A stretch of DNA of 64,000 nt from Arthrobacter sp. AQ5-06 (GTDB lineage Bacteria > Actinomycetota > Actinomycetes > Actinomycetales > Micrococcaceae): NCBI RefSeq assembly GCF_003287955.1, contig NZ_QMKP01000004.1:124001-188000 (forward strand), read 5' to 3'. The notes under the pieces are model-generated. The model was not told where the DNA came from. It was given only the letters and a program-made list of their open reading frames with translations, and searched no databases. Positions 43,300-56,185 of this stretch are shown one piece after another (the stretch's first letter is position 1; each line of letters starts with the position of its first letter). Both the position numbers and the translations under genes were made by a program.

Positions 43300-43706
43300 C
43301 AGAGACTCCTTGGGTAGCGCAACTCCGTTGAATCTACTCAATAAGTCTCGAATGCATCTGCTACGACTGGTCGAGACATCCAACAACCGATGTGGTCCGC
43401 ATCCATCGGCGTTGGACTCTGACCCCTCGAGGGCCGCCCCCAACTGTAGTGGTCAGGTTGATCGGATTCCTCCAGACGCGGCTAGAACCAGGGAAGGAAT
43501 CCCTAACGGGTTTAGTGAACCAGGACTTTGCATTCGGATTCCGTGTGCTCCCGACGACGTTCCTCGGCATGAAAGCGGCCACGACGATTCACAATTCGCG
43601 TGTTTCCCCCGCTGCTCTGCGTCATACGGCGCGGAGCAGCTACGGTGCCAGCGCCAGTCGAGCGGTTGCTGGTGGTGCTGATGGCCGTTGGCCCACAAAC
43701 AATCCG
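43300..43706. other. Stretch with no recognisable gene
   Basis: About 400 bases between the TetR start and the amino-sugar remnants. Both strands have short open frames, but I see no family motif or good ribosome-binding site. Given the neighbouring remnants, it may be further decayed coding DNA. Confidence 0.4.
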
Positions 43707-43826
43707 CCGATTAAGGAAGGGGCCTTCCAAATGACTGCCCAGGATTGTCTCATCCCTGGCAGACAGATCTGCGACGGCTTGCAAGCCGAGAGCGCGCCAG
43801 GAGCCGCCCGACCCTGTGGCAGCGAT
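43707..43826 (-). pseudogene. nagA-like fragment (HLEGPF motif)
   Basis: A minus-strand stretch reads LQAVADLSARDETILGSHLE followed by GPFLN. The motif HLEGPFL is the signature of N-acetylglucosamine-6-phosphate deacetylase (NagA). Only about 40 residues are recognisable. It lies directly downstream of the nagB remnant, in the order found in amino-sugar operons. It is too short to be functional. Confidence 0.55.
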
Positions 43827-43880
43827 TCGGCCGCCGTCGAAGTGACCATTACCCATCTACCGAACGTCATCTCCGGACTC

Positions 43881-44494
43881 TCAGAGCCGTTGCCATGCCG
43901 GTTTGTTCTCGTAGGTGTACCGGTAGTAGGCGGCCAAGGCCAGTTGCGACGCAGCCGCCTCATCGAGAATGACCACGATATTCGGGTGCAGTTGCAGGAT
44001 GGAACCGGGGCACATGGCCGATATAGGCCCCTCCGCCAGCCAGGCGATGGTTTCGGGTTTCTGCTCTCCGGTGGCCATGAGGACAATGCGTCGGGCTTCC
44101 ATGATGGTGCCGAGCCTTGGGTGATGACATGGTGAGGGACATCCGTCGGATCGCCAAAGAAGCGCGCATTGTCCCGCCGGGTCTTGGGAAGGAGAGTTTT
44201 CACCCGCGTCCGCGACCCTAAAGACGATCCTGGTTCATTGAAACCAATATGGCCGTTCGATCCGACGCCGAGGACTTGGACGTCGATGCCGCCGGCGTCG
44301 GTGATCGCTCTCTCAAAGTCCGCAGCCTCAACCTCCAGATCGAGGGCGTTCCCGTTGGGTCCGAGCACTCTCCCTGGATCGATATCCACACGCGTGGTGA
44401 ATTCCTTGTAGACCACCTCGCTGTAGGTTTCGGGGTGCCCTGCTGGCAGGCCGATGTATTCATCCAGGCCGAAGGCGCGCACCTCACGAAACTG
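43881..44494 (-). pseudogene. Glucosamine-6-phosphate deaminase (nagB) remnant
   Basis: The middle section reads FREVRAFGLDEYIGLPAGHP, then VQVLGVGSNGHIGFNEPGSS, the catalytic core of NagB. A missing base near 44127 (in CAAGGCTCGGC) breaks the frame; the last part resumes as GTIMEARRIVLMATGEQKPE and runs to the stop at 43881. The first ~55 residues of a normal NagB are absent and replaced by the end of a ROK kinase. The intact enzyme converts glucosamine-6-phosphate to fructose-6-phosphate and ammonia. Confidence 0.85.
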
Positions 44495-44700
44495 TCCAGG
44501 AGCTCCCGGGCGTTGAGCCCTGAGCCGACCAGTCCAGCATTCTGACCCAGTTCCGCCGGAACGATCCGTGGCCGCGGCTGGAACGTCAGCAGCTGATCCA
44601 CACGGGCGATAACCGGGGCAAAGAGTGCTTCCCGCGCCTCCGCCAGGCCGCCGCCAAGCACCACGGTCTCCGTACCCAGGATGGCCACGGTGTTCTTCGG
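44495..44700 (-). pseudogene. ROK-family sugar kinase, C-terminal fragment
   Basis: The stretch NTVAILGTETVVLGGGLAEA, then LTFQPRPRIVPAELGQNAGL and VGSGLNARELLD, is the C-terminal end of a ROK sugar kinase (glucokinase or N-acetylmannosamine kinase type). The ATP-binding and zinc regions are missing. It runs into the nagB fragment, so a deletion appears to have joined two neighbours of an amino-sugar operon. Confidence 0.75.
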
Positions 44701-44756
44701 CGCCGGCAGCACCCTCGGTGGCGGCGGCACTCTCGGTGGCGGCGGCAGCGCGGGGC

Positions 44757-44965
44757 GGGCGTGCCTCTGGGCGTACAGCCGCGCCACCCAGACCTTCACG
44801 CAGGTCACCCTCTCGGAGATGTTGGCGGATCCCAGCATCCGGGAACTGGCCATCCTGGGAGACAAGCTCGTGGTCAGTTCCGCCGCGTCGACCCAACAAT
44901 CCAAGGTGGCCCTCCTGAGCCTGGACAACCTCGCCTCCTATTCCGTGGCGGGAAATGCCGGATAG
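44757..44965 (+). pseudogene. Plus-strand gene fragment next to the sugar-kinase remnant
   Basis: The frame reads LWAYSRATQTFTQVTLSEML, then RELAILGDKLVVSSAASTQQ, ending LLSLDNLASYSVAGNAG. It resembles the repeated strands of a beta-propeller or surface protein, but I cannot name the family. It lacks a credible start, with a Gly-rich stretch upstream, and is on the opposite strand to the ROK fragment. It is probably the tail of a gene cut by rearrangement. Confidence 0.45.
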
Positions 44966-45028
44966 GCCACGGAGGGAGGGCCCGAATTGGGCTGGGCGTA
45001 GGGTGGAAGTTGACGGAAGGAGCACTTC

Positions 45029-45808
45029 ATGAAGAAAATCCTCATGGTACTGACCAGCGTTTCCGAGATCGGCGATACCGGAGAGAAGACCGGGTACAAC
45101 GTGGCCGAGGCTGCACATCCCTGGAAGGTCTTCAAGGATTCAGGGCATTTCGTCGACTTCGCGTCCATCCAGGGCGGCCAGCCCCCGCGTGACGAGGTGG
45201 ACTCAAAAGATCCCATACAGGTCGCCTTCACGGAGGACGAGACCACGCGCGCCGGTCTCTACAACACTGCCCGGGTCGACGTCGTTGATCCCGACCAGTA
45301 CGACGCCGTCTTCCTCGTGGGAGGCCACGGCACCATGTGGGACTTCCCGGACAGCGAAGGCTTGCAGAACCTCGTAGCCAGCGTCTACAACGACGGCGGC
45401 GTTGTGGGCGCTGTCTGTCACGGGCCGGCCGGACTGCTGAACGTCGAGTTGGCCAACGGCTTTCGGCTGGTCGAGGGCAGGAAGGTCGCTGCCTTCACCA
45501 ACGACGAGGAGGTTGCCGCAGGGAAGGACAAGGTCATCCCGTTCTTTTTGGCAGACCGGCTTGAGGAACAGGGTGCCACCCACGTCTCCGCTGGTGTCTT
45601 TGAGGAAAAGATCGTGGTCGACGACCGGCTGGTGACCGGCCAGAACCCAGCGTCAGCGGCCGGCGTGGCCAAGGAGATGGAGAAGCTCCTGGCAGAGGTC
45701 ATCCACCAGGAAAAAGCCGAGGAGCAGCACGAGGCTGAGGCTCTGCGCGCCGAGAAGGATGCCGAGAAGAACGCCAAGAAGGCTGCTGCGGCAGGCACCG
45801 AGCACTAA
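45029..45808 (+). CDS. DJ-1/PfpI-family protein (glyoxalase III/protease-like) with charged tail
   Basis: This 259-residue protein has a class I glutamine-amidotransferase-like fold. The nucleophile Cys lies in GAVCHGPAGLLNVELA, and the GHGTMWDF segment supplies the upstream acid region. Relatives are glyoxalases, chaperones or stress proteins. The last ~40 residues are a charged Glu/Lys/Ala stretch (HEAEALRAEKDAEKNAKKAA) likely to form a helix or coiled coil. A GGAAGGAG site precedes the ATG. Confidence 0.9.
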   Translation: MKKILMVLTSVSEIGDTGEKTGYNVAEAAHPWKVFKDSGHFVDFASIQGGQPPRDEVDSKDPIQVAFTEDETTRAGLYNTARVDVVDPDQYDAVFLVGGHGTMWDFPDSEGLQNLVASVYNDGGVVGAVCHGPAGLLNVELANGFRLVEGRKVAAFTNDEEVAAGKDKVIPFFLADRLEEQGATHVSAGVFEEKIVVDDRLVTGQNPASAAGVAKEMEKLLAEVIHQEKAEEQHEAEALRAEKDAEKNAKKAAAAGTEH

Positions 45809-48206: not shown

Positions 48207-49268
48207 ATGACTAATTCAGGCAAAGAGGCACAGGCGACCGCGTACTGGACTACGGGCCCGGAGCATGGCGAGCTCCGGAACGAGGCACTGCCAGCGCCCG
48301 GGCCCGGCGAAGCTTTGGTCCGCACGCTGTATTCAGGCATCAGCAAGGGCACGGAAATTGTGGTCCACACCGGCTCCGTCCCGCCCCGCGTGGCTGAGGA
48401 GATGCGCGCGCCGCACCAGGAGGGCACCTTCCCCTCGCCCGTGAAGTTCGGTTATCTCTCGGTGGGCATCGTGGAGGAGGGGCAAGACGGATGGGAGGGC
48501 CAGAAGGTCTTCTGCCTCAATCCACATCAGGACCGCTACGTCATTTCCACTGACGCCCTCACCAGGATTCCCGACGGCGTCCCGGCTCGCCGCGCCGTCC
48601 TCACTGGCACCGTGGAAACCGCCGTCAATGCCCTCTGGGAGGCCGGACCGAGGCTGGGGGACCGGATCGCCGTGGTCGGTGCCGGTCTGGTGGGCGGCAT
48701 GGTGGCCACGCTCCTGCGCACGTTCCCGCTGGCCCGCCTCCAGCTCGTCGACGTGGACCCGGAACGTAAGCACTTGGCGGACCAGCTTGGCGTGGAGTTT
48801 GCCCACCCCGATGACGCCAAACCGGACTGCGACATCGTGTTCCACTGCTCCGCGTCCCAGGAAGGCCTCGAACGCAGCCTGCAGCTGGCCGGCGATGAGG
48901 GCGAGGTCATCGAGATGTCCTGGTACGCCAACCGCAAGGTCACGCTGCCGCTGGGTGAGGACTTTCACGCACGCCGGCTCTCCGTCCGGGCCAGTCAGGT
49001 GGGGGTGGTTGCCCGCGCACGGCGGCACCGCCGGACCACGGCCGAGCGCCTGGAATTGGCTGTTGAGCTCCTCAAGGACCCGGTCTTCGATGCCTTCCTC
49101 ACAGGAGCCTCTCCCTTCACGGACCTGCCGGCAGTAGTCCAGAACCTGGCCGACGGCACGCTCGAAGCCCTGTGCCATGTGATCGAATACCCCAACGCTG
49201 ACAGCCCAGGACGGTACAACCCCAGGCAGGACGGCCGTTCGGAAGCCGACCCCAAAGACAGGAAGTAG
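48207..49268 (+). CDS. MDR-family dehydrogenase, first gene of a pterin-like operon
   Basis: The 353-residue protein is a medium-chain dehydrogenase/reductase. It has LRTLYSGISKGTE-type opening (VRTLYSGISKGTEIVVHTGS) and the NAD(P) fold IAVVGAGLVGGMVATLLRTF. Such proteins resemble the BchC branch, which lacks the structural zinc lobe. The ATG at 48207 is preceded by a weak AGCAAG. Three bases after its stop starts a pterin-synthase-like gene, then a glycosyltransferase. Substrate is unknown; sugar or pterin oxidation is inference from the operon. Confidence 0.85.
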   Translation: MTNSGKEAQATAYWTTGPEHGELRNEALPAPGPGEALVRTLYSGISKGTEIVVHTGSVPPRVAEEMRAPHQEGTFPSPVKFGYLSVGIVEEGQDGWEGQKVFCLNPHQDRYVISTDALTRIPDGVPARRAVLTGTVETAVNALWEAGPRLGDRIAVVGAGLVGGMVATLLRTFPLARLQLVDVDPERKHLADQLGVEFAHPDDAKPDCDIVFHCSASQEGLERSLQLAGDEGEVIEMSWYANRKVTLPLGEDFHARRLSVRASQVGVVARARRHRRTTAERLELAVELLKDPVFDAFLTGASPFTDLPAVVQNLADGTLEALCHVIEYPNADSPGRYNPRQDGRSEADPKDRK

Positions 49269-49271
49269 CCA

Positions 49272-49667
49272 GTGTTCAGCCTGACCGTCCGACGCCACTT
49301 TATGATCGCCCACAGCCTCCCGCGGGAGGCATTTGGCCCGGCCCAGGCCCTCCATGGGGCGACGTTCGTGGCGGAGGTGACGTTCCGCCGTCGTGCGCTG
49401 AACCAAGACTCGATCGTCCTGGACATCGGGGCTGCAGGCGGCATCATCGAGAACGTGCTGTCGGGCCTTAACTACAAAAACTTGGACGAGCACCCGGAGT
49501 TCGAAGGCAAGCTCAGCACCACCGAGGCACTTGCCGAGTACATCGCCCACGCCGTCGCAGCCAAGCTCAAAGATGACGACGACGGCCGCGAGCTCGCGGG
49601 GATCGACGTCACCCTGCGCGAAAATCCGGACGCGTGGGCAACCTGCACCTTCGACCTGTCCGCCTGA
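49272..49667 (+). CDS. PTPS/QueD-like protein with altered active-site residues
   Basis: This 131-residue member of the 6-pyruvoyl/6-carboxytetrahydropterin synthase family starts from GTG 49272 with CAGGAAG upstream. The first zinc His is in FMIAHSL. The usual HGH pair is replaced by LHGATF, so a zinc ligand is missing, and the catalytic Cys that normally precedes it is absent. VLDIGAAGGIIENVL and LSTTEALAEYIAHAV keep the fold's order. The change suggests a new reaction or loss of catalysis. It sits between the dehydrogenase and glycosyltransferase genes. Confidence 0.85.
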   Translation: MFSLTVRRHFMIAHSLPREAFGPAQALHGATFVAEVTFRRRALNQDSIVLDIGAAGGIIENVLSGLNYKNLDEHPEFEGKLSTTEALAEYIAHAVAAKLKDDDDGRELAGIDVTLRENPDAWATCTFDLSA

Positions 49668-49671
49668 CCCC

Positions 49672-50874
49672 ATGCTGGTCAGGTTCCTGGTCCCCGCTAA
49701 CGTCCGCCACAACTCCGGCGGCAACGTCTACAACGCGCGGCTCATCCAAGGCCTGAGGACGTTGGGCGTTGCCGTGGAGACTCTGGCGGTAGACGGCTCC
49801 TGGCCAGAGGCCAGCGCTAGCGAACGACGGCGGCTGGGCGTCCTGCTGGGCGCCGGGGACCCCGGGGTGGACCAACTGCGGGTGGAAATTACCCCAGAAA
49901 CCGTCACCCTCGTGGATGGGCTGATTGCGTGCGGTGCCCCTGACGAACTGGAGTACGCCGCGGCCGCCGGACAACACATCTGGGTCCTGCAGCACATGCC
50001 GTCGCCCAGCCATCCCGATGGCGAAGGGCGGTCACTGCGGGCGGCCGCCGGAGTGATCTGCACCAGTTCGTCCGCAGCGGCCTCGGCGTCAGAAAAGCAC
50101 GGGCTCCCCGCCAGCCGGGTCGCCTTGCCCGGGACGGACCCTGCACCGGTGGCGTCAGGTACGGCCCCGCCCCACATCATTGCGGTGGCCGCGCTGCTGC
50201 CCAACAAGGACCAGCTGCTGACCGTGGCCGCGCTGGCCAGGCTCCAGGACCTGCCGTGGTCGGCATCGCTGGTAGGAACGGACGACGCCGACCCCGCCTA
50301 TGCGTCGCGGGTCCGGGCAGCCATTGCCTCCTATGGAATGGAGGGCAGGGTGCGCGTGACCGGCCAGCTCGTCGGGACCGCCCTGGCGGACGAATGGGAC
50401 CGGACGGACCTGAGCCTGCTTGTGTCCCGGGCCGAAGCCTTTGGGCTTGTGGTGACGGAATCGCTGGCCCGCGGGATTCCCGTCATCGTGCGGGAGGGGA
50501 CCGGTGCCGTGGACGCGTTGGGTTTGGCCGGCAGGCTCGCGGGAAGACTGGCCGGCAGACTGGACGGCAAGCCTGGTGGCGGGTCATACGCGGTGCCAGG
50601 CGCCGCCGTCGGACTCGCCGGACCTGAAGGTAACCTCCCGGACGTGCTCGCTGCCGTGATCCGGCAGTGGCTGGTGGACGGATCTCTCCGTGTCGGCTGG
50701 CGTGCGGCTGCGCTGGCTGCACGGGAACAGTTGCCCGGCTGGAACTCCACCGCTCGGAACGTCCTGGAGATCCTCGGTGTGCCAACCGAAGAAGCGCCCG
50801 CTGAAGAAATGCCAGCCGAAGAAGCGCCCGCTGAAGGGACGCCTACCGCCGCGGCGACTGCCGGTGGACAATAA
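49672..50874 (+). CDS. GT4-family glycosyltransferase, third gene of the pterin-like operon
   Basis: This glycosyltransferase of 400 residues has the GT-B fold (FLVPANVRHNSGGNVYNARL) and the C-terminal EAFGLVVTESLARGIPVIVR signature with both glutamates, as in GT4 retaining enzymes. ATG 49672 lies four bases after the preceding stop. Two low-complexity repeats are seen: LAGRLAGRLAGRLDGK in the C-terminal domain, and EEAPAEEMPAEEAPAEGTP at the end. Together with the preceding genes it suggests that a sugar is added to a pterin- or purine-derived product. Confidence 0.88.
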   Translation: MLVRFLVPANVRHNSGGNVYNARLIQGLRTLGVAVETLAVDGSWPEASASERRRLGVLLGAGDPGVDQLRVEITPETVTLVDGLIACGAPDELEYAAAAGQHIWVLQHMPSPSHPDGEGRSLRAAAGVICTSSSAAASASEKHGLPASRVALPGTDPAPVASGTAPPHIIAVAALLPNKDQLLTVAALARLQDLPWSASLVGTDDADPAYASRVRAAIASYGMEGRVRVTGQLVGTALADEWDRTDLSLLVSRAEAFGLVVTESLARGIPVIVREGTGAVDALGLAGRLAGRLAGRLDGKPGGGSYAVPGAAVGLAGPEGNLPDVLAAVIRQWLVDGSLRVGWRAAALAAREQLPGWNSTARNVLEILGVPTEEAPAEEMPAEEAPAEGTPTAAATAGGQ

Positions 50875-50877
50875 GCC

Positions 50878-52116
50878 ATGACCACGCATGCGATCTCCGC
50901 CGCCGGCCTGGGCGCGCAAGCCCCGGATCCGCAGATGCTCACCCCTGAACTCCTCAGGGCATGGGCCTGGCACAAGCAGGGCTTGGACGGCACGCTGCAG
51001 GGCGCGGACGCCGCCGACGTATTTACCAGAGCAGGCTGGGCCCGTTCCGTCGGCGGCGCCAACCCGTACCTCACACTCTTTGCCCGCGCCGGCACAAGCC
51101 GCGCGCAGGCGGATGCCGACGTTCTGTCCCTGAAAATCCATGAGCTGCCCACCGCCCGCGGCTGCACCTATGTGCTGGGACACGATGACTTTTCCTGGGG
51201 CCTCCAGATCGGTCGGGACGCCGCCGTGGCGCCGTTCCGTGTGCTGGCGAGAATGGGCGTTGAGCGCGGTGAGATCACGCTGCTGGAAGAACAGATCCTC
51301 CACGCCCTGGCCGAAGCCGGCGGCCCGCTGGATCCGAAGCAGCTCAAGGATGTGCTGGGCGATTCGGTCCGGAACCTCGGCGAAGAGGGCAAAAAGAAGG
51401 GCGCCGCCACCACCTTGCCCACTGCTCTGGGCCTCCTGCAGGCGGACGGCCGGATCCGGCGAGTGCCCCTCAACGGCCGGCTGGATCAGCAGCGCTACGC
51501 CTACACGCTGTGGGGGCTGCCTGGCACCGCCATGGACGACGACGCCGCCCGCGGCCTCCTGCTGGAGTGCTATCTCGGCTGGACTGGAGGTGCCACAGTC
51601 AAACAGTCGCAATGGTTCACGGGGTTCACCCTGGCCCACACCAAGGCGGCGTTGACCACCATTGGGGCGGTACAGGTTCCCACCCCCAGCGGCGAGGTGC
51701 TGTGGATGATGCCCGACGACGTCGGGCGCCTTGCGTCGTTCGAGGCGCCGGCGGAGGAGCAGATTCAGTTGCTGGCCGGTACGGATTCGTTGGTCCTGCT
51801 CCGCAGGAACTCAGGGGATCTGTTTGCCGACCAGGACAAGGGAAAGAAAGTCCTGGGTTCCGCCTTGGCTTTGCAGGCTGACCTGCCGGACCATCCCATC
51901 TTCGACCGGGGCCGGATCATCGGGCTGTGGCAATTCGATCCCGGGAAAGCGCGGATTGCCCACTGGATCTTTGACTGGGCCACGCCAGCGGTATCCCGGC
52001 GCATCGCCGAGGTGGAGGCTTGGATCCGGGACGAACTGGGCGACTTCCGCTCGTTCAGCCTGGACTCACCGGCCTCGCGCCAGGACAGGATCGACGCCCT
52101 GGATTCCGCCGGGTGA
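50878..52116 (+). CDS. Winged-helix (AlkZ-type, HTH_42) DNA-binding protein
   Basis: This 412-residue protein is of the winged-helix group that includes the DNA glycosylase AlkZ. The N-terminal part is LRAWAWHKQGLDGTLQGADA with the AlkZ-like AWHKQGL opening, and near the C terminus HPIFDRGRIIGLWQFDPGKA. The AlkZ catalytic QxQ-type motif is here QFDP, so glycosylase activity is uncertain. The ATG lies three bases after the glycosyltransferase stop, so it may be co-transcribed. It converges on tadA. Confidence 0.8.
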   Translation: MTTHAISAAGLGAQAPDPQMLTPELLRAWAWHKQGLDGTLQGADAADVFTRAGWARSVGGANPYLTLFARAGTSRAQADADVLSLKIHELPTARGCTYVLGHDDFSWGLQIGRDAAVAPFRVLARMGVERGEITLLEEQILHALAEAGGPLDPKQLKDVLGDSVRNLGEEGKKKGAATTLPTALGLLQADGRIRRVPLNGRLDQQRYAYTLWGLPGTAMDDDAARGLLLECYLGWTGGATVKQSQWFTGFTLAHTKAALTTIGAVQVPTPSGEVLWMMPDDVGRLASFEAPAEEQIQLLAGTDSLVLLRRNSGDLFADQDKGKKVLGSALALQADLPDHPIFDRGRIIGLWQFDPGKARIAHWIFDWATPAVSRRIAEVEAWIRDELGDFRSFSLDSPASRQDRIDALDSAG

Positions 52117-54588: not shown

Positions 54589-55279
54589 ATGGGCAGCATG
54601 AACATCCCCACACCTGCCGCCGCACGAACACTGACGTGCAGGGCCGTCCTTTTCGATATGGACGGCACGCTGGTGGACTCCACGGCAGTAGTGGAGGAGG
54701 TCTGGGGAGAATTCGCTGTCCGGTACGGTCTGGACATCGCCGAAATCCTGCGCACTTCGCACGGTGTCCAGGCTGCCGACACCGTGCGCCGGTTCGCGCC
54801 GGCTGGGGCCGACGTTGTGGCGCTCACTGCGGAACTCGGCTCGATGGAAAGGGTGCGGACTGCCGGTATCGTCGCGTTGCCGGGGGGCTGCCGAGATGCT
54901 CCGCAGCATCCCGGCCCAGGCGGTGGCGCTGGTGACCTCAGCGGACAGGAGCCTGGCGGACATCCGCATGGACGCTGCGGGACTGGCCATGCCGGCCACG
55001 GCCGTGACGGCGGACCTGGTCACATGGGGCAAGCCGCACCCGGAAGGGTATCTGAAGGCAGCCGGGCTGCTGGGCGTGGAGCCGGAGGACGCCGTGGTGT
55101 TCGAAGACGCGCCCGCCGGAATCGCGGCAGGTGTTGCCGCCGGTATCCGGACGGTGGCCGTGGGTCCCAGTACGGGCGATTTGCCGGCAGGCGTGCTCCA
55201 TATCCCGGACTACAGTGCTGTGAGCGTCTCCGTGGAAACGGACGCCGCGGGACGGCAGATCATTTCTTTCCGGCTTTGA
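54589..55279 (+). pseudogene. HAD-family sugar phosphatase split by a G-run frameshift
   Basis: The N-terminal half reads AVLFDMDGTLVDSTAVVEEV with the HAD nucleophile, then GIVALPGG. A run of six G near 54885 shifts the frame; the second half reads AAEMLRSIPAQAVALVTSAD, then VTWGKPHPEGYLKAAGLLGV and DAVVFEDAPAGIAAG, completing a beta-phosphoglucomutase or sugar-phosphatase-like HAD. One G fewer would restore a 230-residue protein. Because the only lesion is in a homopolymer, a sequencing error is quite possible. Confidence 0.8.
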
Positions 55280-55388
55280 GGTCCGGGACCTCGATGATGC
55301 GCTTGCCCGCGCCGAGAGCAGGGATGACCTCCTCCGGAACCTCAATCCCTGCCTTGTTGCCGCTGCCCAGGATGGTGGTGAATTTCAT
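55260..55388 (-). pseudogene. Truncated DUF1905-like gene
   Basis: A 42-residue frame starts MKFTTILGSGNKAGIEVPEE and ends IIEVPDLKAGKK. The first ~30 residues match the N terminus of DUF1905 proteins, which normally continue for about another 60 residues. The 3' end overlaps the convergent HAD frame. It looks like a gene cut short by deletion, though a genuine small protein cannot be excluded. Confidence 0.5.
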
Positions 55389-55468
55389 GGCCAAAGTATG
55401 GCCCGGAGCCGCTGGGCTGGGAACCCTGACCGCCACGCCGGGAAAGCCCGGGGGCCGGAAGGTTCGGC

Positions 55469-56185
55469 TCAGTACCAGTTGTTCGACAGGTGGAAGTTCA
55501 GCGCGCCGCACGGTGACTGGTAGCGCTCCTGGATGTAGTTCAGGCCCCAGCTGATCTGCGTGCGGTAGTTGGTGAGGTAGTCCGCTCCGGCGCTCGCCAT
55601 CTTCTCAGCGGGCAACGACTGGACGATGCCGTACGCGCCGCTGCTGGCGTTGGTGGCCGTGGTGGTCCAGTCGGATTCCTTGGTCCACAGCGTCTGCAGG
55701 CACTGCATCTGGTCAGCGGACCAGCCATAGGTCGCCAGCTGCCCGGCGGCGTAGGCCTGCGCTCCTGCGGGGTCATTGATGGCCACAACAGGGGCAGGGG
55801 CAGGGGCCGGGGCCGGTGCCGGGGCCGGGGCCGGTGCCGGGTCGGCAGCCTGGGGCGCGACGTTGATCTCGGCCGGTGCAGCTTCCGGAGTAGCCGGGGG
55901 CTGGATCTGGGCTGCTTCGAAGCTCAGCTTCGACTGGGCGCTGGTTTCTTCGGCGCCCTGGTCCGCACCGGCCGCAAGCGATGCAGACTCGGAAGCGTGT
56001 CCAGCGGCGCTGACTCCGATCAGCAGGGCGCACGCCGTGGCGAACACCGCGGCTCGCTGACCCACGGAGGGAATCCGGGCCACCTTGGACAGTGGGGACT
56101 TTGCTGCACCGAAGCGGGTCTGCTTGCGGTGGCTATCGGACTTTGGGCCGCCCTGCGGGCGCGTTTGTACCTTGAATTCAGACAT
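55469..56185 (-). CDS. Secreted lytic-transglycosylase-like protein under c-di-AMP riboswitch
   Basis: This exported 238-residue protein has a long basic N terminus before a signal helix (AAVFATACALLIGVSAAGHA). A Pro/Ala repeat linker (APAPAPAPAPAPAPAP) follows, then a transglycosylase-like domain of ~90 residues: YGWSADQMQCLQTLWTKESD, then YGIVQSLPAEKMASAGADYL and NYIQERYQSPCGALNFH, typical of aggregation-promoting or muralytic proteins in actinobacteria. The start codon is about 15 bases after the riboswitch, so c-di-AMP levels should control it. Confidence 0.88.
   Translation of the reverse strand: MSEFKVQTRPQGGPKSDSHRKQTRFGAAKSPLSKVARIPSVGQRAAVFATACALLIGVSAAGHASESASLAAGADQGAEETSAQSKLSFEAAQIQPPATPEAAPAEINVAPQAADPAPAPAPAPAPAPAPAPVVAINDPAGAQAYAAGQLATYGWSADQMQCLQTLWTKESDWTTTATNASSGAYGIVQSLPAEKMASAGADYLTNYRTQISWGLNYIQERYQSPCGALNFHLSNNWY

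Follow-up and report, generated by a model that had tools for sequence, protein, structure and literature searches.

A conserved dehydrogenase, PTPS-IV and glycosyltransferase trio of Arthrobacter as the possible core of a GTP-derived pathway

PTPS-IV proteins and the Arthrobacter trio

The PTPS (6-pyruvoyltetrahydropterin synthase) family COG0720 contains a subfamily, PTPS-IV, which has FGPAQ as its signature (cluster-node 62 of AGeNNT) and whose genes were described in 2017 as neighbours of PF00925 and PF01872, PF00925 being named 'GTP cyclohydrolase I' in that account of the subfamily (PMC5445326). Other described relatives are QueD, the 6-carboxytetrahydropterin synthase, and SCO6650 of Streptomyces coelicolor (PDB 3D7J), the closest solved relative of the protein studied here. 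SCO6650 reportedly has no PTPS activity. SCO6655 appears as GTP cyclohydrolase II (GCH II) within an expression table of PMC2853524. Here we analyse a PTPS-IV gene and its two partners in a stretch of 64,000 nucleotides (nt) of Arthrobacter sp. AQ5-06 (contig NZ_QMKP01000004.1, positions 124,001 to 188,000), called the window below. We propose, with a probability of about 0.58, that the medium-chain dehydrogenase/reductase (MDR), the PTPS-IV protein and the glycosyltransferase encoded there make up the conserved core of an as yet uncharacterised pathway that would lead from GTP via the first riboflavin-type intermediates. A literature search, with most subscription journals outside its reach, found nothing on the product of such a pathway.

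The first-pass annotation had described three tightly spaced genes for an MDR dehydrogenase, a PTPS-fold protein and a GT4 glycosyltransferase. This is confirmed: the genes are real, their products match these families, and they are separated by 3 nt (MDR to PTPS) and 4 nt (PTPS to glycosyltransferase). The features of the locus are:

48207..49268, + strand: MDR-superfamily dehydrogenase without catalytic-zinc motifs (ATG start, TAG stop; SKGTE and FGY where the Cys and GHE motifs are expected)
49272..49667, + strand: PTPS-IV (SCO6650-type) T-fold protein of 131 residues (GTG start, TGA stop)
49332..49346, + strand: FGPAQ signature of PTPS-IV, residues 21-25
49353..49361, + strand: HGA, residues 28-30, replacing the HGH of QueD
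49672..50874, + strand: GT4-type glycosyltransferase of 400 residues (ATG start, TAA stop)
50434..50460, + strand: E-x7-E motif of the glycosyltransferase (E255/E263), both Glu being invariant in 17 aligned members

The PTPS protein matches PF01242 (E 2.6e-25, 89.2 bits against a Pfam cut-off of 22.4), and its gene is the sole PF01242 match in the window's genome at E <= 0.001. With the NCBIfam model of QueD (TIGR03367) it scores 37.5 bits, below the cut-off of 89.25, and a PDB search at E <= 0.1 returned one distinct sequence, 3D7J (SCO6650; E 3.8e-32, residues 1-124). It carries the FGPAQ signature of PTPS-IV, which is followed by xLHGA in 74 of 80 PTPS proteins of the Arthrobacter group searched by regular expression. 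Escherichia coli QueD (b2765, strain MG1655) is 24% identical to it. Both proteins have two of the three zinc His (H14 and H28 of the window protein) and a Glu (E117), presumably the one that anchors the pterin, yet QueD has a Cys, a full HGH and DH where the window protein has no Cys, HGA and NY, so that the CxxxHGH motif and the Asp-His pair of QueD/PTPS-I are absent. Judged from this alignment, and with the roles of the zinc His, Cys and Asp-His being those we presume from QueD, the protein lacks most of the known QueD catalytic residues. Despite these losses, most of the annotated records in our data name PTPS-IV '6-carboxytetrahydropterin synthase', often with a queuosine GO term.

The MDR protein has no Pfam match at 1e-3; it matches MDR models, and the best curated one is TIGR01202, BchC (E 4.5e-12), yet its 45.7 bits stay far under that model's cut-off of 291. 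The Cys motif and the GHE of zinc-dependent MDR alcohol dehydrogenases are missing: in place of the classical zinc motifs, where we take the catalytic zinc ligands to lie, S-x-GTE and GY are invariant in 13 aligned members. The glycosyltransferase combines a Glycos_transf_1 domain (PF00534, E 5.6e-14 in Pfam) with the E-x7-E motif, as GT4 enzymes do; its sequence has no near match among solved structures (best E in PDB 5.9e-4).

Conservation was assessed on the best 80 of 130 PTPS relatives, named ones being up to 95% identical to the window protein. The PTPS gene was found in each of the 25 genomes sampled from the same genus and in four of 14 others of the order. The MDR gene adjoins it in 80/80 of these Arthrobacter-group loci and the glycosyltransferase gene comes next in 79/80; a more sensitive search detected the glycosyltransferase of locus L120 and left L112 as the exception. 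In eighteen shorter loci of the genus (L032-L049), queries from other lineages detect the MDR gene in every case and the glycosyltransferase in 17. Among six more loci of the Arthrobacter group, up to 20 kb long (L056-L058, L064-L066), L064 alone lacks the glycosyltransferase. The bare trio is also present on an Arthrobacter plasmid record (L183). Median ratios of non-synonymous to synonymous substitution (dN/dS) between the window genes and their relatives are low: 0.137 for the MDR (n=80), 0.136 for PTPS-IV (n=80) and 0.29 for the glycosyltransferase (n=78). PTPS-IV is thus under strong purifying selection in Arthrobacter, and the low ratios of all three genes together with a gene order kept in 79/80 loci show that the trio did not arise by chance. 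The operon on whose conservation the first-pass annotation had made its interpretation depend is indeed conserved.

None of nine other families, which build the larger clusters described below, lies within 8 kb of the PTPS gene (or before the contig stops) in the 80 Arthrobacter-group loci. The tendency of PTPS-IV genes to stand next to GCH II and RibD_C genes, which is not a strict rule, is accordingly absent from the window and from 80/80 loci. It is conceivable that the Arthrobacter trio was repurposed and works outside any GTP-derived pathway, with PTPS-IV as a subunit of the dehydrogenase or the transferase that binds or serves as a scaffold without catalysing a reaction. The lack of nearby GCH II, RibD, methyltransferase and membrane genes and the inactivity told of SCO6650 would agree with this. 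However, we consider it unlikely, given the strong purifying selection on PTPS-IV and the conserved residues that the Arthrobacter protein shares with members from full clusters.

Larger clusters in other lineages

Twenty-eight loci outside the Arthrobacter group were compared, 11 chosen from the PTPS matches and 17 from 18 fetched plasmid records (of 21 matches). The cluster queries often came from these same loci and part of the matches are therefore self-matches; the partner families were verified by Pfam/NCBIfam on selected members. The MDR-PTPS pair is present in 25 of the 28 loci, the two genes being at most 480 nt apart in all 25. Within 8 kb, these 25 loci hold a glycosyltransferase (24), a class I methyltransferase (23), a RibD-type reductase (18), a GCH II (16), a CDP-alcohol phosphatidyltransferase (18), a PF03706 membrane protein (17) and a creatininase (6). 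GCH II and the reductase occur together in 11 loci and at least one of them in 23; L052, whose contig stops within the glycosyltransferase gene, and L180 have neither. Two of the 25, L062 and L063, have the HGH-keeping type of PTPS that is described below for family f18, and in L063 the glycosyltransferase and a methyltransferase domain form one open reading frame (ORF). Named hosts are Streptomyces, Microbacterium, Rhizobium, Agrobacterium, Peteryoungia, Methylosinus and Palleronia, with Thiodictyon as the sole gammaproteobacterium. The first-pass annotation had proposed to look for methyltransferase and GTP cyclohydrolase genes that recur with the trio: both do, but the cyclohydrolase is GCH II and not GCH I.

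Compared with the window trio, clusters of the Streptomyces type add the methyltransferase, PF03706, creatininase, GCH II and CDP-alcohol phosphatidyltransferase genes (the locus of SCO6650 itself lay outside the sample). With the PTPS-IV neighbourhood as set out in PMC5445326, our loci share FGPAQ and, outside the genus, likewise PF00925 and PF01872, whereas in Arthrobacter only MDR-PTPS-GT (GT, glycosyltransferase) is present, with neither GCH II nor RibD_C linked to it. The suggestion of a new pathway is to be qualified in both respects: part of the neighbourhood was already on record, and at the window the recurring partners are absent.

A separate actinobacterial family, f18, was drawn from the best 30 of 67 matches. 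In its 19 loci (L011-L023, L025-L027, L029-L031) the PTPS protein reads FGPA-x-R-x-HGH, with the His of HGH kept and no Cys at the QueD position, and the order RibD_C-MDR-PTPS-GT is consecutive in 19/19 (two of them supplied queries). Among the same best 30, L024 has the QueD-type CxxxHGH and none of these neighbours, and L028 is truncated. The presence of HGH-keeping proteins in this order suggests that the operon predates loss of the third zinc His, for which the f18 lineage offers a natural comparison.

Three PTPS-IV-type genes of Streptomyces plasmids (L158, L178, L179) have a recurring neighbourhood of another kind, made up of cupin, MBL-fold, sigma-70 and BTAD-regulator genes; two of the three also have a gene with a MEKHLA domain there.

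A possible route from GTP and its alternatives

The partner genes suggest how the pathway may begin. Among 16 cluster GCH II proteins, one aligned position holds Met in six and Tyr in ten; we take it to be the position that determines formation of the formamidopyrimidine (FAPy) product, and a Tyr-to-Met change is said to make SCO6655 halt at the formylated intermediate. A creatininase gene accompanies GCH II in 6/6 clusters of the Met type and in 0/10 of the Tyr type. In the riboflavin route of Sinorhizobium, as given in PMC9478397, the creatininase homologue BrbF and its Brucella homologue are formamidases that convert 2-amino-5-formylamino-6-ribosylamino-4(3H)-pyrimidinone 5'-phosphate (AFRPP) to 2,5-diamino-6-ribosylamino-4(3H)-pyrimidinone 5'-phosphate (DARoPP). 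The creatininases of the six clusters, which belong to the family that BrbF is homologous to, are possibly formamidases and predicted to deformylate AFRPP in the same manner; the window has no such gene. The simplest reading is that both types of cluster make DARoPP. A strict rule that the creatininase excludes RibD was rejected, L184 (S. globisporus) having both, together with GCH II, MDR and PTPS-IV.

For the full-size clusters we infer the following order: (i), GTP would be converted to DARoPP, directly where GCH II is of the normal kind, or else by a formyl-retaining GCH II with the creatininase-family formamidase as a second step; (ii), a RibD_C-type reductase without a deaminase domain would yield a ribitylamino compound with its 2-amino group retained; (iii), the MDR protein, lacking its zinc motifs, would oxidise or reduce the side chain; (iv), PTPS-IV would bind the 2-amino-4-oxo ring and rearrange or cyclise it and, (v), the glycosyltransferase would attach a sugar, the product being completed outside Arthrobacter by the methyltransferase and the membrane enzymes. 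Only the MDR, PTPS-IV and glycosyltransferase steps would be linked in the genome of the window, where housekeeping RibA and RibD, or GCH I, might provide the ring precursor. RibA and RibD are encoded there on contig C33, and there is one GCH I match. A second GCH II on contig C64 is 68% identical to the GCH II of cluster L054 and is fused to an acyl-CoA-dehydrogenase-like domain (617 residues; L166 8537-10390, - strand). This fusion was rejected as an obligatory partner because full-length relatives occur in just 9/25 genomes of the genus (in G409 as two adjacent pieces), two more being partial.

The reductases bear on the nature of the ring. Pterins retain the 2-amino group and flavins lose it. 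No deaminase domain was matched in the reductases of L054, L062, L162 and L165, so that the 2-amino group would be kept; the reductase of L162, the sole one searched in PDB, has a DARoPP reductase (6p8c) as its nearest match. The riboflavin pathway likewise uses GCH II and a RibD-type reductase, and the trio could instead modify riboflavin, FMN or lumazine to give a glycosylated or secreted flavin. The missing deaminase domain speaks against this, as does the fact that lumazine and riboflavin synthases are not listed in nine annotated regions, whose gene tables are incomplete, and we hold a flavin product to be quite improbable.

The first-pass annotation had suggested dihydroneopterin triphosphate and 6-carboxytetrahydropterin as substrates. 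Dihydroneopterin triphosphate from GCH I could be turned by PTPS-IV into a modified tetrahydropterin, to which the glycosyltransferase would add a sugar to give a pterin glycoside of the cyanobacterial type. GCH I is present in the window's genome, and PTPS-IV retains two of the three zinc His and what we take to be the pterin-anchoring Glu. Against this, the cyclohydrolase that recurs is GCH II and the reductase is of the RibD type, and PTPS-IV has lost the Cys, the third zinc His and the Asp-His pair of QueD. For these reasons we do not favour either substrate and regard this scheme as improbable; the context rather points to the riboflavin-type diaminopyrimidine branch. The earlier interpretation is thus partly supported: a GTP-derived, glycosylated product agrees with the gene context and a pterin is possible as the final product, but the substrates proposed are not the favoured ones.

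A pterin might be reached independently of GCH I if the full cluster led to a glycopterin lipid. GCH I makes an open-chain 2-ketose by Amadori rearrangement. Here, GCH II and the RibD-type reductase would first give 2,5-diamino-6-ribitylamino-pyrimidinone 5'-phosphate, and the MDR protein would oxidise C2' of the ribityl chain to an intermediate of the 1-deoxy-2-ketose type, such as GCH I forms. PTPS-IV would close the ring to dihydroneopterin monophosphate, the glycosyltransferase and methyltransferase would decorate it, and a PgsA-like enzyme would attach a membrane lipid to the polyol phosphate, with the Arthrobacter trio as the minimal late part of the route. The oxidation and the T-fold closure are drawn by chemical analogy from established pathways. 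Of the CDP-alcohol enzymes, that of L162 resembles PgsA (47 bits against a cut-off of 109) and that of L157 has no NCBIfam match at 1e-5. We consider this elaboration improbable.

PTPS-IV was also assigned to archaeal coenzyme F420 as unpublished work, in the statement made by Zallot et al. 2016 (PMC5041015), and a role in F420 or deazaflavin synthesis might be considered. The link was rejected for the window's genome, in which CofD (TIGR01819) has no match while the same search was positive in 6/14 control genomes (above the cut-off in three); nor is it obvious how the glycosyltransferase and methyltransferase partners would fit, and such a role is very improbable.

Several observations weigh against our proposal of a conserved core of a pathway from GTP. 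The window has no linked GCH II or RibD, and the second GCH II, the fusion, lies on another contig with full-length relatives in 9/25 genomes of the genus. A search for PF03706 gave no match in the genome of the window but was positive in 11/14 control genomes, and the methyltransferase and CDP-alcohol enzyme had no match in a search without a positive control. The glycosyltransferase is missing in L064, L112 and L163, and the PTPS-IV-type genes of L158, L178 and L179 stand without any partner from the trio or the cluster. For the reductases of L162 and L165 the best-scoring model is the general one of the RibD C-terminal domain, and for the three reductases tested all RibD models stay below cut-off. 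The creatininase of L157, the one tested, scores best with mycofactocin MftE (141 of 172 bits), then with creatininase, IolN and, weakly, ArfB (37 of 180); because it is below the cut-off in all of these models, we speak of its formamidase role as an inference. Finally, the pairing of Met with creatininase may reflect a single event in one lineage since all six clusters are from Streptomyces or Streptomyces-like.

If our proposal holds, the cluster, seen in Actinobacteria, Alphaproteobacteria and one gammaproteobacterial record, provides a concrete candidate pathway to a compound that would derive from GTP, carry a sugar and perhaps be linked to the membrane, and should the ring be a pterin, a further bacterial pterin route. 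The occurrence of the PTPS gene in every sampled genome of one soil genus makes the trio a small and genetically accessible entry point.

Genes next to the trio and elsewhere in the window

An AlkZ-like gene (50878-52116) begins 3 nt after the glycosyltransferase in the ORF listing. It was rejected as a pathway member: it is present in some Arthrobacter-group loci and elsewhere tadA adjoins the glycosyltransferase. In L076 (10402-12792) and L131 (10409-12844), single ORFs extend across the glycosyltransferase position and the AlkZ-like match and are possible fusions of the two.

At 43640-45118 on the - strand of the window, a stretch that resembles glucosamine-6-phosphate deaminase (NagB) lies within a longer ORF with unrelated-looking ends, and is possibly a broken gene. 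The ORF at 54589-55554, presumably a HAD-type phosphatase, apparently resumes in a second frame (54764-55279) past a run of G, which looks like a frameshift or a sequencing error.

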